Below the pieces are notes generated by a model. That model did not search any database. It was not told where the DNA came from and saw only the letters and a program-made list of their open reading frames with translations. Shown here one piece after another: positions 1 to 4,686 of a stretch of 64,000 bases of DNA; the first letter of the stretch is position 1, and each line of letters begins with the position of its first letter. The stretch covers positions 1,674,001 to 1,738,000 of the forward strand of contig NZ_CP159218.1 of assembly GCF_040438885.1 (NCBI RefSeq), given 5' to 3'. Source of the DNA: Nakamurella sp. A5-74. GTDB lineage: Bacteria > Actinomycetota > Actinomycetes > Mycobacteriales > Nakamurellaceae. Both the position numbers and the translations under genes were made by a program.

Positions 1-1838
1 CCGGCGAGATGCGGGTCCGGCTGCGGGCACTGGGTGCCCCAGGCGTGCAGGCCCGCACCTTCCACTCCGCCGCCCTCAAACAACTGCGGTACTTCTGGCC
101 GACAGCTGTGGGCGGTCAGCTGTGGCCGTTGCTGGAGAACAAACTGCGGCTGGTGGCGATGGCGTCGCGTCGGGTCGGTTCCGGCACCGATGCCGCCACG
201 CTGCGCGACCTGGCCGGCGAGATCGAGTGGGCCAAGGCGACGCTGGCCGCTCCCAGCACCTACCAGGCGGCGGCGGCGAAGGCTCTGCGCGATCCGTCGG
301 TGGCGCCGGAGACGGTGGCCAAGGTGTTCGAGGTCTACGAATCCGTCAAACGGGACGCCGAGCAGCTCGACTTCGACGACCTGCTGCTGCACACCAGTGC
401 GATCCTCGAGGACAACGAGACGGTGGCGCGGGAGTTCCGCGCGCGGTACCGGTGCTTCGTGGTCGACGAGTACCAGGACGTCACCCCCCTGCAGCAGCGC
501 ACTCTGCAGGCCTGGCTCGGCGGACGGAACCAGCTGACGGTCGTCGGCGACGCCAACCAGACGATCTACTCCTTCGCCGGAGCGTCACCGAAACACCTGC
601 TCGAGTTCGACAAGACCTACCCCGAGGCGTCCGTCATCCGGCTGGAGAACGACTACCGCTCGACCCCGCAGGTGGTCACCCTGGCCAACCGGGTGATCGC
701 CGGAGCCGGTGCCGGACATCGGTTCCGGCTGAAGCTGCGGGCCGTGCTACCCGACGGTCCGCAGGCGGTCTTCTCCGAGCACCCGGACGAGCCGACCGAG
801 GCTTCCGAGGTGTCCGCCAAGATCGCCGCCAGGATCGAGGCGGGGATGCCTGCTTCGTCCATCGCGATCCTCTACCGCATCAACGCCCAGTCGGAGGTCT
901 ACGAGAAGGCGCTCACCGAGGCGGGGGTTCCGTACGTCGTCAAGGGCGGTCAGCGGTTCTTCGCCCGAGCCGAGGTGCGGCAGGCGATGACGCTCGTCCG
1001 GCGGGCCGCCGAGTCGGCACCGGAGACCCACGAGCGAGGCGGTCCGGTGCTGATCGACCAGGTCCGTGAGTTGCTCGGCCCGATCGGCCTCTCCGACGAC
1101 CCGCCCCCGCCGGGTGCGCTCCGTGACCGCTGGGACTCGCTGCTGGGAGTCGTCAGCATCGCGGAGGAGCTGGCGGACGCGGGCAACGAGCCCGGGCTGC
1201 GCGAACTGGCGGCCGAGCTGGAACAACGCTCGGAAGCGCAGCACGCCCCGACCATCGAGGGCGTCACGCTCGCCTCGTTGCATGCGGCGAAGGGCCTGGA
1301 GTGGGACGCCGTGCACCTGGTCGGTCTGACCGACGGGACGCTCCCGATCCAATATGCGGAGACTCCCGAGCAGGTCGAGGAGGAGCGGCGCCTGCTCTAC
1401 GTCGGCGTCACCAGAGCCAGGACGCATCTGCACGTGTCCTGGGCGCTGTCGCGGACGGCGGGCGGCCGCCGGTCGCGCCGGCGGTCGCGGTTCCTGACCG
1501 GGATCGCGCCGGACGCACCGGCGCGGGCCGGGACCGGGCGGTGTCGGGTGTGTGCGGGGCCGTTGATCACTCCGGGTGAGATCAAGACCGGACGGTGCCA
1601 CAACTGCCCGTCGTCGGCGGATCCTCAGTTGGTCGAAGCGCTCAAGACCTGGCGTCGGCAGCGGTCGGCTGACGATTCGGTGCCCGCGTTCGTCGTCTTC
1701 AGCGATGCCACGCTGCTCGCGATCGCCGAGCGTCGACCCACGGACGACGCGGCGCTGCTGGCGATCCCGGGAATCGGTCCGACCAAGCTCGACAGCTACG
1801 GATGCGAAGTCCTGGCCGTCGTCGGCCGGACCCGCTGA
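1..1838 (+). CDS. uvrD2: ATP-dependent DNA helicase UvrD2, 5' end cut off by the window
   Basis: Superfamily 1A DNA helicase that unwinds DNA with ATP during repair and replication. The frame is open to the left edge, so the N-terminus with the Walker A motif is missing. Visible in order: Walker B motif DEYQD (about 466-480), motif III GDANQTIYSF (about 547-577), YRST (about 655-665), motif V SLHAAKGLEWD (about 1276-1308), motif VI LLYVGVTRAR (about 1393-1420), a four-cysteine CxxC/CxxC cluster (about 1545-1610) and a C-terminal HRDC-like region (about 1690-1830). The cysteine cluster and the HRDC tail separate UvrD2 from UvrD1/PcrA. Its position directly upstream of a whiB7-type gene matches the mycobacterial order. 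Confidence 0.95.
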   Translation, partial: GEMRVRLRALGAPGVQARTFHSAALKQLRYFWPTAVGGQLWPLLENKLRLVAMASRRVGSGTDAATLRDLAGEIEWAKATLAAPSTYQAAAAKALRDPSVAPETVAKVFEVYESVKRDAEQLDFDDLLLHTSAILEDNETVAREFRARYRCFVVDEYQDVTPLQQRTLQAWLGGRNQLTVVGDANQTIYSFAGASPKHLLEFDKTYPEASVIRLENDYRSTPQVVTLANRVIAGAGAGHRFRLKLRAVLPDGPQAVFSEHPDEPTEASEVSAKIAARIEAGMPASSIAILYRINAQSEVYEKALTEAGVPYVVKGGQRFFARAEVRQAMTLVRRAAESAPETHERGGPVLIDQVRELLGPIGLSDDPPPPGALRDRWDSLLGVVSIAEELADAGNEPGLRELAAELEQRSEAQHAPTIEGVTLASLHAAKGLEWDAVHLVGLTDGTLPIQYAETPEQVEEERRLLYVGVTRARTHLHVSWALSRTAGGRRSRRRSRFLTGIAPDAPARAGTGRCRVCAGPLITPGEIKTGRCHNCPSSADPQLVEALKTWRRQRSADDSVPAFVVFSDATLLAIAERRPTDDAALLAIPGIGPTKLDSYGCEVLAVVGRTR

Positions 1839-1988
1839 ACTCGCAGCCCGACGACGTGCACGGCGCGTCCGGCGCTCCGGGTTTCCAGAAGTGTTGCTGC
1901 ACAACGAGTTGCGCACCTCTGTTTGCCGCCGTTCCGGTCGCTCGCGGTTTCGCCGACGGTCGCTGAACGGCCGCCGGGAAGAATCTTC

Positions 1989-2038
1989 CAGAAAGTTCTC
2001 TTATTCGGTTGCCCCGTCGATGTAGGGGGTCGTACTGT
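1989..2038 (+). promoter_or_regulatory. Candidate whiB7 promoter with AT-rich element
   Basis: A TTGCCC hexamer at 2009-2014 and TACTGT at 2033-2038 are 18 bp apart. A locally AT-rich stretch (about 1989-2005) lies immediately upstream of the -35. Known WhiB7-dependent promoters carry an AT-rich block just upstream of the -35, bound by the WhiB7 AT-hook. The match here is by eye and is an inference. Confidence 0.45.
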
Positions 2039-2113
2039 TTGTCAGGTCCGGCGAGTTGCCGGAATTCTGCCCGGTATCGACCCGAGCAGGATCGAGACGA
2101 AAGGAGGCGCCCC

Positions 2114-2311
2114 GTGGAGATCACCAAGTTCAACTTCGGTGGACACAGCCGCGCCCTCGTCTCGATCGAGGCGAATCGGACGGCGTCCGCCGTGCTGGTG
2201 CGTCAGCGGCCGTCTTCGGTGATGGTCACCGGTCCCGTCATGGGATCGGCCGGCGAATACGCCGGTAGCGCTGATGCATGCCTGGGTCGGACCGGGGATC
2301 AACTGGTGTAG
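2114..2311 (+). CDS. 65-residue upstream ORF in the whiB7 leader
   Basis: A GTG start at 2114 follows an excellent ribosome site (AAGGAGG, 2101-2107, six bases before the start) and gives a 65-residue protein starting MEITKFNFGG and ending GDQLV. It contains no recognisable domain. It lies between the candidate whiB7 promoter and whiB7 itself, with 157 nt to the WhiB7 start. Mycobacterial whiB7 leaders carry short upstream ORFs whose translation controls read-through in response to ribosome-targeting antibiotics. A regulatory leader peptide is therefore the most natural reading, though this one is longer than the mycobacterial examples. It could also be an independent small protein. Confidence 0.6.
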   Translation: MEITKFNFGGHSRALVSIEANRTASAVLVRQRPSSVMVTGPVMGSAGEYAGSADACLGRTGDQLV

Positions 2312-2331
2312 GTCACCAGCTCCCTCCCCTC

Positions 2332-2368
2332 CGACCGCGGCCCCCCAAGATGTTGGGTTCCGCGGTCG
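2332..2368 (+). promoter_or_regulatory. Attenuator-like hairpin in the whiB7 leader
   Basis: A 9-bp perfect stem (CGACCGCGG at 2332-2340 with CCGCGGTCG at 2360-2368) encloses a second 5-bp stem (CCCAA 2344-2348 with TTGGG 2353-2357). It starts 20 nt after the stop codon of the upstream ORF and ends 100 nt before the WhiB7 start. No T-run follows, which is usual for actinobacterial terminators. Position and shape fit a conditional terminator that depends on translation of the upstream ORF; this is an inference. Confidence 0.5.
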
Positions 2369-2468
2369 ACGTGTCTCCGCACCGACCCAGAACCCGCAGA
2401 TCATGCGCGGTTCCGCCCGGTCCCGCGTCATCAGAGACGAATACATCACCATCGGAGGTGAGCCAGCA

Positions 2469-2744
2469 GTGATCGAAAACCTGTTCCCCGACGAGATCGA
2501 CCCGATCTTCACCGACAACCTGCCATGCCACGCAGGCGACCCGGATCTGTGGTTCGCGGAGCGACCCGACGATCTGGAGCGTGCCAAGGTTCTCTGCGGC
2601 GACTGCCCGGCGAAGGCCCTGTGCCTGTCCGGTGCACTCGATCGCGGTGAGCCCTGGGGAGTGTGGGGCGGCGAGATCCTCGATCGTGGGATCGTCATCG
2701 CCCGTAAGCGTCCGCGTGGTCGTCCCCGCAAGGTTGCGGCATGA
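2469..2744 (+). CDS. whiB7: WhiB7 redox-sensing transcription factor
   Basis: A 91-residue WhiB-family [4Fe-4S] protein. The four cluster cysteines are C20, C43, C46 and C52, in the usual C...CxxC(x5)C spacing. The WGVWGG turn is at 63-68. A C-terminal AT-hook RGRPRK (83-88) identifies the WhiB7 subtype, which in other actinobacteria partners the housekeeping sigma factor and switches on intrinsic antibiotic-resistance genes. The GTG start at 2469 is chosen because GGAGG (2454-2458) lies ten bases upstream and the protein then has the family length. The frame is open further upstream, but the extra residues do not look like WhiB sequence. A leader ORF and hairpin upstream suggest attenuation control. 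Confidence 0.93.
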   Translation: MIENLFPDEIDPIFTDNLPCHAGDPDLWFAERPDDLERAKVLCGDCPAKALCLSGALDRGEPWGVWGGEILDRGIVIARKRPRGRPRKVAA

Positions 2745-2896
2745 CCCCGCGCCTCGTCATCTGCGGCCCCGGTCCGGTGACCGAGGTCCCGGATCCGAAC
2801 TGTCGCAAGGGATCCAGCACATCAGCACCATCCGGTGGTTCCGGTCCGACCGGACCCACAGCAACCGACACCCATCCACAGCACAGGAGTATCGAC

Positions 2897-3031
2897 ATGC
2901 ATCTGCTCGTCCAAGAACTGTCCCGTGACCGAATGCGCCAGGCGCAGCGGGACATGGAGGCCATCAGGCTGGCCGGCCGACTGCGCACCGCTCGCAAGCT
3001 GCGCGATCGTCGGCGAACCGTCCGCCATTGA
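2897..3031 (+). CDS. Small basic protein of 44 residues
   Basis: ATG at 2897 follows AGGAG (2885-2889). The protein starts MHLLVQELSRDRMRQAQ and is rich in Arg, Gln and Leu, predicted as one amphipathic helix. Short basic helical proteins of this kind are common in actinobacteria and have no assigned role. It lies 152 bases after whiB7 and just before a strong terminator, so it may be the last gene of the whiB7 transcript. The frame is open up to the whiB7 stop codon, but the upstream part is low-complexity (Pro, Ser, Thr) and has no convincing ribosome site. Confidence 0.6.
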   Translation: MHLLVQELSRDRMRQAQRDMEAIRLAGRLRTARKLRDRRRTVRH

Positions 3032-3083
3032 AGGGCCGGCTGCACCGGACACCCGGAGCAGCACTGACCTTCCCGCATCATCC

Positions 3084-3119
3084 GCACAGCCCCGACCGGT
3101 GATCCGGTCGGGGCTGTGC
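3084..3119 (+). terminator. Strong hairpin terminator after the whiB7 unit
   Basis: A perfect 16-bp stem (GCACAGCCCCGACCGG at 3084-3099 with its complement at 3104-3119) closes a TGAT loop. It follows the small basic protein and precedes the next small gene. There is no T-tract, as is common in high-GC actinobacteria. Confidence 0.8.
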
Positions 3120-3146
3120 GCGTGCAGCGGCGCTACGGTGGCTCGC

Positions 3147-3338
3147 ATGATCGATCCGGAGGTGGGCGGTCCAACGCCCCAGGTTTCGTGCGCGCTCTGC
3201 GGAACGCACGCGGACCCGGTGCCGATGACGTGGTCGACCGAGTTCGACGCCGGCACGGGGACGCTGCACTACTGCGATCGGTGTTCCCGGGACAACCTGC
3301 GTGCTGTCGAGGCGAAGCTGCCGCACGACTGGTGGTGA
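3147..3338 (+). CDS. Small double-CxxC (zinc-ribbon-like) protein, 63 residues
   Basis: The protein starts at ATG 3147 and has two CxxC pairs, CALC near residue 15 and CDRC near residue 45, separated by about 27 residues, as in a zinc ribbon. It ends with a Trp-rich tail (HDWW). No enzymatic motif is visible. It converges on the ABC1 kinase gene. The role is unknown; a structural zinc-binding protein is inferred. The ribosome site is weak (the TACGGTGG stretch), so the start is the less certain part. Confidence 0.6.
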   Translation: MIDPEVGGPTPQVSCALCGTHADPVPMTWSTEFDAGTGTLHYCDRCSRDNLRAVEAKLPHDWW

Positions 3339-3378
3339 CCGTGCCGACCCGCGGGACCCTCGGCCGGCCACCGACCGG

Positions 3379-4686
3379 TCAGGCGAAGCCCGGCTGCCAG
3401 TGCTCCACGATGGTCTTGAACGGAGCAGTCGCGTCCAGCTGACAGAGGACCCCGATCGACCCGAACGTCACCCGGTACACCATGAGGTAGTGCGGGGGCA
3501 GGTTGAGGTTCCGGGCCATCTTGGACTCGGCACTCGAGATGTCGGACATCACCGCGAACCGCTCCTGCATCCAGCCGCGGGTGAAGTGGAAGCGTTCGTG
3601 CCGCAGCGGCTCGATGAACGGCGCGACGTAGTTCATCAACATCACCGGATCGGGTTGGTAGGCCGCTGGGATGAACCCCTCGAGCCGCAACAACCGCTCG
3701 ACGTCCTCGGCGCGCTCGTCGATGGCGAGCCGGGAGATCTCCCCGATGATCGGCGGAGAGCCGTCCGGAAGGCGAGCGACCGAGCCGAAGTCGATGACGC
3801 CCAGCCGGTCGTCGGCCGTGAGCAGGTAGTTGCCCGGATGTGGGTCGGCGTGCAGCAGACCGACCATCTCGGGGGAGCTGAAGTGCAGTTCGGTCAACAA
3901 CTCGCCACACAGATCACGCTGCTCGGTGGTGCCGGAGGCGATCACGGCGCTCATCGGCACCCCGTCGATCCACTCGGACACCAACACCTTCGGAGCGCTG
4001 GCCACCACCCGCGGGATCCGGAACCGCGGGTCGTCCGCGTAGCCGGCCGCGAAGGCGCGCTGGTTGTCCGCCTCGGCCGGGTAGTCCAGCTCCTCCAAGA
4101 TGCGCTCGCGCAGTTCGGCGATGAGCGGCTTGATCGCGATCCCCGGAAGGAGCATCCCGAACAGCGGCGCGATCCTGGCGAGCTGGCCGAGATCGGCGCG
4201 GAGCGCGGCCTCCGCGCGCGGGTACTGGATCTTGACGGCGACCTCGCGACCGTCCTTCCAGACCGCGCGGTGCACCTGCCCGACGCTGGCCGCTGCGGTG
4301 GCGGTGTCGTCGAACTCGGCGAACCGGGAGCGCCAGGTGGTGCCGAGCTGCTCGTCGAGCACCCGGTGGACCTGCGCCGTCGGCATCGGCGGTGCGTCCT
4401 TCTGCAGCTTGGTGAGGGCTTCCCGGTACGGCTCGGCGTACTCGTCGGGAATGGCGGCCTCGTAGACCGACAGTGCCTGCCCGAACTTCATCGCGCCGCC
4501 CTTGAGCGACCCGAGAACCTCGAACAGCTGCTCAGCGGTCCGGCGCTGCACTCCGGCGCTGACCTCGTCGCGGTCGGCGCCGAACAACTTCTGCCCCCAG
4601 CCGAGCGTCATCCTGCCCGCAGCAGAGATCGGCAGACCGGCCAGCTTGGCCGTCCGTCCGAAAGCGCCTTTGGGGATGTCCGACAC
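3379..4686 (-). CDS. ABC1/AarF (UbiB-like) atypical kinase
   Basis: A 435-residue protein-kinase-like protein of the ABC1/ADCK/UbiB family. Visible signatures are the KxGQ motif (K67-Q70), the VAVKIQYP lysine (K152), HADPHPGN (about 288-295) and the metal-binding IDFG (about 305-308). In quinone-making bacteria the family supports isoprenoid lipid metabolism; the substrate of actinobacterial members is not established. The ThiF-like gene lies 62 bases upstream on the same strand, so the two are probably co-transcribed. An ABC1 kinase beside whiB7 is also the mycobacterial arrangement. Confidence 0.9.
   Translation of the reverse strand: MSDIPKGAFGRTAKLAGLPISAAGRMTLGWGQKLFGADRDEVSAGVQRRTAEQLFEVLGSLKGGAMKFGQALSVYEAAIPDEYAEPYREALTKLQKDAPPMPTAQVHRVLDEQLGTTWRSRFAEFDDTATAAASVGQVHRAVWKDGREVAVKIQYPRAEAALRADLGQLARIAPLFGMLLPGIAIKPLIAELRERILEELDYPAEADNQRAFAAGYADDPRFRIPRVVASAPKVLVSEWIDGVPMSAVIASGTTEQRDLCGELLTELHFSSPEMVGLLHADPHPGNYLLTADDRLGVIDFGSVARLPDGSPPIIGEISRLAIDERAEDVERLLRLEGFIPAAYQPDPVMLMNYVAPFIEPLRHERFHFTRGWMQERFAVMSDISSAESKMARNLNLPPHYLMVYRVTFGSIGVLCQLDATAPFKTIVEHWQPGFA

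Follow-up and report, generated by a model that had tools for sequence, protein, structure and literature searches.

The intrinsic resistance of actinomycetes to many drugs that target the ribosome is under the control of whiB7. The available excerpts of five papers (PMC11550727, PMC13236596, PMC12121999, PMC10727445, PMC13393426) describe a whiB7/wblC attenuator based on an upstream open reading frame (uORF) (Burian and Thompson 2018; Lee, Lee and Roe 2022). According to the excerpted model, a ribosome that reaches the uORF stop codon leads to the terminator, and one that stalls earlier leads to the antiterminator (PMC11550727, PMC10727445, PMC13393426). A uORF and a terminator-like hairpin are reported for M. 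marinum and M. bovis in the available text of Dinan 2014 (PMC4128351), and, according to work published in 2025, whether antibiotics stall ribosomes inside this uORF is still to be examined (PMC12121999). As excerpted, the mycobacterial ilvB1 amino-acid attenuator is similar in that the position of the ribosome in the uORF selects between terminator and antiterminator (PMC13236596).

In the excerpts of PMC8298421, Arg/Lys-X-Arg/Lys is described as a ketolide arrest motif and, less strictly, an erythromycin arrest motif, and stalling on ErmDL depends less on this motif with erythromycin than with telithromycin. In ErmDL the motif is RLR at residues 6–8 and regulates ErmD methyltransferase expression through refolding of the mRNA. 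For M. abscessus homologs of the WhiB7 regulon, the available portion of PMC4974804 reports induction of seven of eight by erythromycin and of two of eight by kanamycin.

Layout of the Nakamurella leader

The locus lies in a window of 64,000 nucleotides (the whole stretch of DNA analyzed) from a Nakamurella genome of 4.75 Mb. Downstream of uvrD2 (9–1838) come, in order, a promoter, a uORF, a hairpin, 100 nt and whiB7 (Table 1). The 65-residue uORF with its near-perfect ribosome site, the nested hairpin of 9 and 5 bp and the spacing to whiB7 were all present where the first-pass annotation had placed them. With the attenuators described in the excerpted literature, the locus shares the uORF, a putative terminator before whiB7, a predicted antiterminator formed from the uORF end and the terminator, and a promoter that the gene product would activate; it differs in belonging to a new genus, in having its own peptide and a U-poor tail, and in a Lys/Arg-X-Lys/Arg (+X+) motif that is absent from the descriptions we met. 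This motif is a new, testable part of the leader, which is otherwise a regular member of the known class.

Table 1. Coordinates within the window of the whiB7 leader features, with predicted and candidate elements named as such
Feature	Position	Strand	Details
Promoter	1997–2038	+	AT-rich box 1997–2008; -35 TTGCCC 2009–2014; -10 TACTGT 2033–2038
Shine-Dalgarno site of uORF	2100–2107	+	AAAGGAGG, 6 nt ahead of GTG
uORF	2114–2311	+	GTG 2114, TAG 2309–2311, 65 codons; ORF at this place conserved class-wide
R30-Q31-R32, +X+ motif	2201–2209	+	candidate macrolide/ketolide arrest site
Predicted antiterminator	2285–2336	+	2285–2291:2330–2336, 2294–2298:2325–2329, 2303–2308:2314–2319; fold -30.6 kcal/mol
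Putative terminator hairpin	2332–2368	+	9 bp 2332–2340:2360–2368 and 5 bp 2344–2348:2353–2357; -24.3 kcal/mol
U-poor tail	2369–2378	+	directly after terminator stem; ACGTGTCTCC, 3 T in 10
Segment complementary to 2282–2290	2382–2390	+	9 bp; role uncertain
Shine-Dalgarno site of whiB7	2454–2461	+	GGAGGTGA
whiB7	2469–2744	+	GTG start, 91 aa; Wbl domain and C-terminal RGRPRK AT-hook-like tail

At the sequence level, the gene downstream of the leader is confirmed as a WhiB7 ortholog, because its best solved-structure match is the WhiB7 chain 7kif (E 6.1e-32) and the Pfam Whib model scores 50.5 bits on it; a scan of NCBIfam gave no match to this protein. The candidate AT-rich promoter of the first-pass annotation was located ahead of the uORF. 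Its -35 and -10 elements are separated by 18 nt, with the AT-rich stretch directly upstream of -35, and the same layout (TTG, 17–18 nt, TANNNT) recurs in all 14 Nakamurella leaders examined, a set without L020. A generic scan of 1840–3100 reported no sigma-70 promoter.

For comparison, 167 WhiB7-like loci were surveyed (18 from Nakamurella, paralogs included, 80 named and 69 unnamed loci of the class); 15 of the 130 class genomes with a WhiB7 match were left out. Terminators of the GGCC(A/G)CGG type were present at 142 loci, the window's hairpin CGACCGCGG being admitted by hand. The terminator pattern was lacking at the other 25, five of them from Nakamurella, of which four were placed by hand and the fifth (L020) was used only as a uORF. 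Among the surveyed loci, L024, L037 and L038 (L068 is the same place as L038) are three further WhiB7-like genes of N. lactea (G008), and the leader's terminator pattern was not found before them.

A uORF was called when it had at least 25 codons, an ATG or GTG start, a Shine-Dalgarno site matching in at least 5 of 6 positions, and a stop codon 13–37 nt before the hairpin. By this rule 115 of the 142 actinomycete leaders contain one, against 1.6 expected from dinucleotide shuffles; some of the remaining 27 may have a uORF with a weaker Shine-Dalgarno site. Lengths in the 115 leaders range from 37 to 120 codons with a median of 69, and 51 are of 65 codons or fewer; the named Mycobacterium/Mycolicibacterium loci (22 of 29 with a uORF by rule) span 46–74 codons and 14 Nakamurella leaders span 26 to 84. 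Sixty-five codons is therefore an ordinary length for a whiB7 uORF, and the proposal that this one is unusually long, much longer than those known, was rejected. Nor is the suggestion of a different antibiotic-sensing solution supported, such a uORF being the rule among leaders with this terminator type.

The distance from uORF stop to hairpin is tight (mean 22.5 nt, sd 3.6; 20 nt in the window) and that from start to hairpin is loose (mean 245, sd 61), so that the end of the uORF is its anchored part. The uORF bodies resemble coding sequence, with GC contents of 0.67/0.59/0.79 by codon position. Among 32 overlapping close pairs, dN/dS is moderate and dN is below dS in 25, with changes summing to 404.8 nonsynonymous and 216.2 synonymous. 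Judged from these substitutions, the comparison shows a peptide under weak constraint, the +X+ motif apart. Lack of conservation of the uORF had been named as a refutation of the first-pass reading, and the outcome is mixed: the ORF is conserved among relatives in its place and not in its peptide. The peptide in the window is indeed unlike the known ones, as had been remarked, a distinction that is not special to it, as these peptides diverge widely apart from +X+. Whereas uORFs of the ilvB1 type hold codons of the regulated amino acids (as excerpted in PMC13236596), the window's uORF is not rich in alanine, the one residue examined (12%, against a mean of 19.6% across the 115 uORFs).

Competing folds at the end of the uORF

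The leader (2060–2468) folds with a z score of -5.1 relative to 100 shuffles. Two folds, with the energies given in Table 1, compete for 2332–2336, the first five bases of the terminator 5' arm. The predicted antiterminator pairs segment A (2285–2308, the last uORF codons) with 2314–2336, and its apical loop contains the uORF stop codon. When segment A and linker were taken from matched rather than permuted leaders (110 non-redundant leaders), none of 5000 permutations paired as well, while an upstream uORF stretch used as control was equaled by 4064 of 5000; for A and the terminator arm the figures were 3 of 5000 and, for the upstream control, 4900 of 5000. Within Nakamurella alone (nine leaders), 43 of 5000 permutations were as good for A and linker. 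An earlier version of the test, based on swaps among 133 leaders, placed 98 matched pairs above the swapped mean (controls, 42–58). As expected, the co-variation between uORF end and linker fits the published whiB7/wblC attenuator.

Two results weigh on the other side. In the fold test A occupies at least three bases of the terminator arm in 120 of 133 leaders, but a shuffled A also occupies a mean of 3.7 arm bases, compared with 5.2 for the real one, and the fold energy is better than that of all 30 shuffles in only 48 of 133. Counted column by column in an alignment of 13 of the 15 Nakamurella leaders (L014 and L020 were left out), where the register shifts between leaders, the antiterminator is 65.7% paired, hardly more than the 64.3% in shuffles, 82 of 500 of which were as high. 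Folds and permutation co-variation together point to an antiterminator composed of the uORF end and the terminator arm.

On these grounds the whiB7 leader is very probably a ribosome-controlled transcription attenuator, and the earlier reading of a translated-looking uORF followed by a conditional terminator is supported. What the computations show is the set of parts, the competition between the two folds, and that A co-varies with its pairing partner; from these we infer termination, read-through and induction as follows. RNA polymerase would start near 2045 and a ribosome would load at the uORF. During normal translation the ribosome would reach the stop codon, covering much of segment A and keeping it from pairing with its partner; the terminator would then form and most transcripts would end at about 2375. 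An antibiotic or a shortage of amino acids would hold the ribosome further upstream, whereupon A would pair with 2314–2336, occupy the shared bases of the terminator arm and let the polymerase read into whiB7. The WhiB7 product would then boost its own promoter, by the Streptomyces precedent given in the available text of PMC7157823. To this scheme we add a less certain step, for which we would give slightly under an even chance: R-Q-R, codons 30–32, may be a stall site for macrolide-type drugs. As it lies upstream of A, a ribosome stalled there would leave A free.

The +X+ motif of the uORF peptide

The motif was first noticed by eye in Nakamurella, whose 15 uORFs therefore form a discovery set that was excluded from the tests on other genera. 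Counts refer to the uORF body, without the last 13 codons. At least one +X+ occurs in 13 of the 15 discovery uORFs (4.2 expected), in 77 of 91 from other genera (31.1 expected) and in 47 of 61 from other orders, the replication set included (21.3 expected). For replication, a criterion (observed-to-expected ratio of 1.7) was fixed before the sequences were fetched. Of 45 genomes used, four lacked a match to the terminator and 12 lacked a uORF; six of the 29 uORFs obtained were redundant, leaving 23. The motif was found in 17 of these versus 9.8 expected (sd 2.2), a ratio of 1.73; the number of motifs was 21 versus 12.9 (ratio 1.63), and frames +1 and +2 had 21 versus 21.4 and 21 versus 20.5. 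The excess was thus replicated, more weakly than in the first set.

Pooling the discovery, first test and replication sets gave 129 non-redundant uORFs, 107 of which contain +X+ (46.1 expected), with no excess in frames +1 and +2 (104 versus 104.4 and 118 versus 117.1 expected). Shuffling within seven-residue blocks raised the expectation to 58.0 and shuffling that preserved how dense Lys/Arg residues are at any given distance from the stop gave 50.9; none of 1000 and none of 500 shuffles, respectively, were as high as observed. Under these block and column-preserving shuffles, Lys/Arg pairs two residues apart are strongly in excess (z 7.1 and 7.8) and those at spacing 4 are depleted (z -4.0 and -3.4), with spacing 3 near zero (z -0.1 and 0.4), z values that overstate independence, since filtering by k-mer overlap removes near-duplicates but not shared ancestry. 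Acidic pairs are not raised (5 versus 17.2 expected).

At least one uORF with +X+ was found in 18 of 22 sampled families; the sampled leaders of the other four lack it (0/1, 0/3, 0/1 and 0/1), as do the Nakamurella leaders L013 and L017. Across 106 uORFs the motif is common 15–25 codons before the stop and absent at 10–15; its other frequent place is the last ten codons, a region constrained by RNA pairing. Class-wide, Lys/Arg pairs in the last 13 codons are raised at spacings 2, 4 and 6, perhaps as a result of that pairing. In the window the motif sits farther up, at 36 codons from the stop and beyond the common interval. This position and the families and leaders that lack the motif count against the added stalling step, as does the smaller part that +X+ plays in erythromycin than in telithromycin stalling on ErmDL. 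Among 108 leaders with both +X+ and a predicted A pairing, 95 have at least one motif so placed that a ribosome halted on it would keep clear of all A pairs, an uncontrolled count; the same would hold for most motifs located over about 14 codons ahead of the stop. In those 95 leaders the median gap from a ribosome stalled on +X+ to the antiterminator arm is 24 nt. For the window, a ribosome stalled at R30-Q-R32 would likewise leave the arm free (leading edge at -89, arm from -24).

Macrolides block the synthesis of certain peptides only, so that they might be sensed poorly by a uORF that lacks a suitable arrest context. We infer that +X+ may act as a macrolide sensor within the whiB7 uORF. In its general form the proposal is that, across actinomycetes, this uORF carries a built-in +X+ arrest site for macrolides and ketolides, often placed 15–25 codons ahead of the stop, a short way upstream of the antiterminator arm, with the rest of the peptide free to drift; we hold it tentatively, at not quite an even probability. 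Like ErmDL (RLR; excerpts of PMC8298421), the window's uORF would combine an R-X-R with a leader peptide controlling resistance to drugs that act on the ribosome; unlike it, the motif falls at codons 30–32 of 65, would act on the transcription of a regulator and is a candidate stall site. The available excerpts of the literature on the whiB7/wblC uORF, attenuation and stalling contain no mention of +X+, and the primary papers may name it.

The chief alternative, which concerns the added +X+ step only, is a uORF blind to its sequence, in which whiB7 is induced whenever a ribosome stalls or slows before A. The +X+ clusters would then have another cause, such as an RNA element or a general slowing of translation that keeps the ribosome in step with the polymerase. 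We regard this as a serious possibility that falls somewhat short of even. It agrees with the response of whiB7 to drugs of several classes and also to starvation for amino acids, as given in excerpts of PMC11550727 and PMC12121999, with the divergence of the peptide outside +X+, and with the mild rise of adjacent Lys/Arg pairs (spacing 1, z 1.5 and 2.6 under the two shuffles). Against it, the two-residue spacing stands out even when local composition or column density is preserved, and 55-aa segments of 26 window proteins have no +X+ excess (57 of 178 versus 52.2 expected). An RNA element, moreover, does not predict that Lys and Arg interchange (RxR 58, KxR 26, RxK 7 and KxK 1 in the 92 of 106 uORFs with the motif) while the codons vary, a pattern that points to selection on the peptide. 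If the +X+ arrest site is real, the whiB7 uORF does more than count ribosomes blindly: a single leader senses stalls in general and, by a dedicated site, also the drugs that arrest certain peptides only. The shared motif names the codons at which to search for stalls and predicts which drugs depend on them.

The putative terminator and the neighborhood of whiB7

The GC-rich hairpin between uORF and whiB7 is a putative terminator with a weak U-tract, a weakness that counts against the attenuator reading. Its pair cells are kept at 92.3% in the genus alignment, against 31.6–64.1% for slid versions; shuffles of the alignment keep 91.0%, with 29 of 500 as high as the real value. It is improbable that in Nakamurella the hairpin is not an intrinsic terminator and acts instead via Rho, a polymerase pause, or the translation or stability of the message. 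That reading draws on the U-poor tails of the genus, where a TTT run follows the stem in three of ten leaders, and on the generic scan of 1840–3100, which reported no U-tract terminator; yet the same stem is followed by a U-rich tail at the homologous place in other genera (TTT in 116 of 131), and 100 nt with a separate Shine-Dalgarno site lie between hairpin and whiB7. A search of Rfam with 1700–3400 returned no family at its gathering score.

That a third pairing (2282–2290 with 2382–2390) locks the read-through or the terminated form and is the true switch in Nakamurella is very unlikely: its 9 bp are part of the minimum-energy fold of 2270–2395 and only 7 of 500 shuffles were as high in a column count of the genus alignment, but register-free permutations were as good in 1530 of 5000 cases within the genus (nine leaders) and in 4998 of 5000 elsewhere (100 leaders), and 2382–2390 is situated past the point at which release is expected. 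As a general feature, which had first been read by eye, this pairing fails the permutation test and was rejected.

WhiB7 orthologs are present in 15 of 17 genomes of the genus, the window's own counted. The two others (G013 and G015, 98% and 96% complete) have no ortholog at E 1e-20, and possibly lost whiB7. UvrD2-like motifs occur upstream of whiB7 at 82 of 123 loci. Behind the gene, the window has a small ORF of 44 aa (2897–3031, + strand) without a Pfam or NCBIfam match; short ORFs containing RDR(M/I/A)R occupy this place at 9 of 15 loci of the genus. The window also encodes a small protein of 63 aa (3147–3338, + strand) with two Cys-x-x-Cys pairs and a weak match to DUF6510 (E 0.089). Also beside whiB7 lies an ABC1-type kinase (3379–4686, - strand), whose top NCBIfam model is the macrolide-binding ATPase MABP-1, at 546 bits and under the cut-off of 800.
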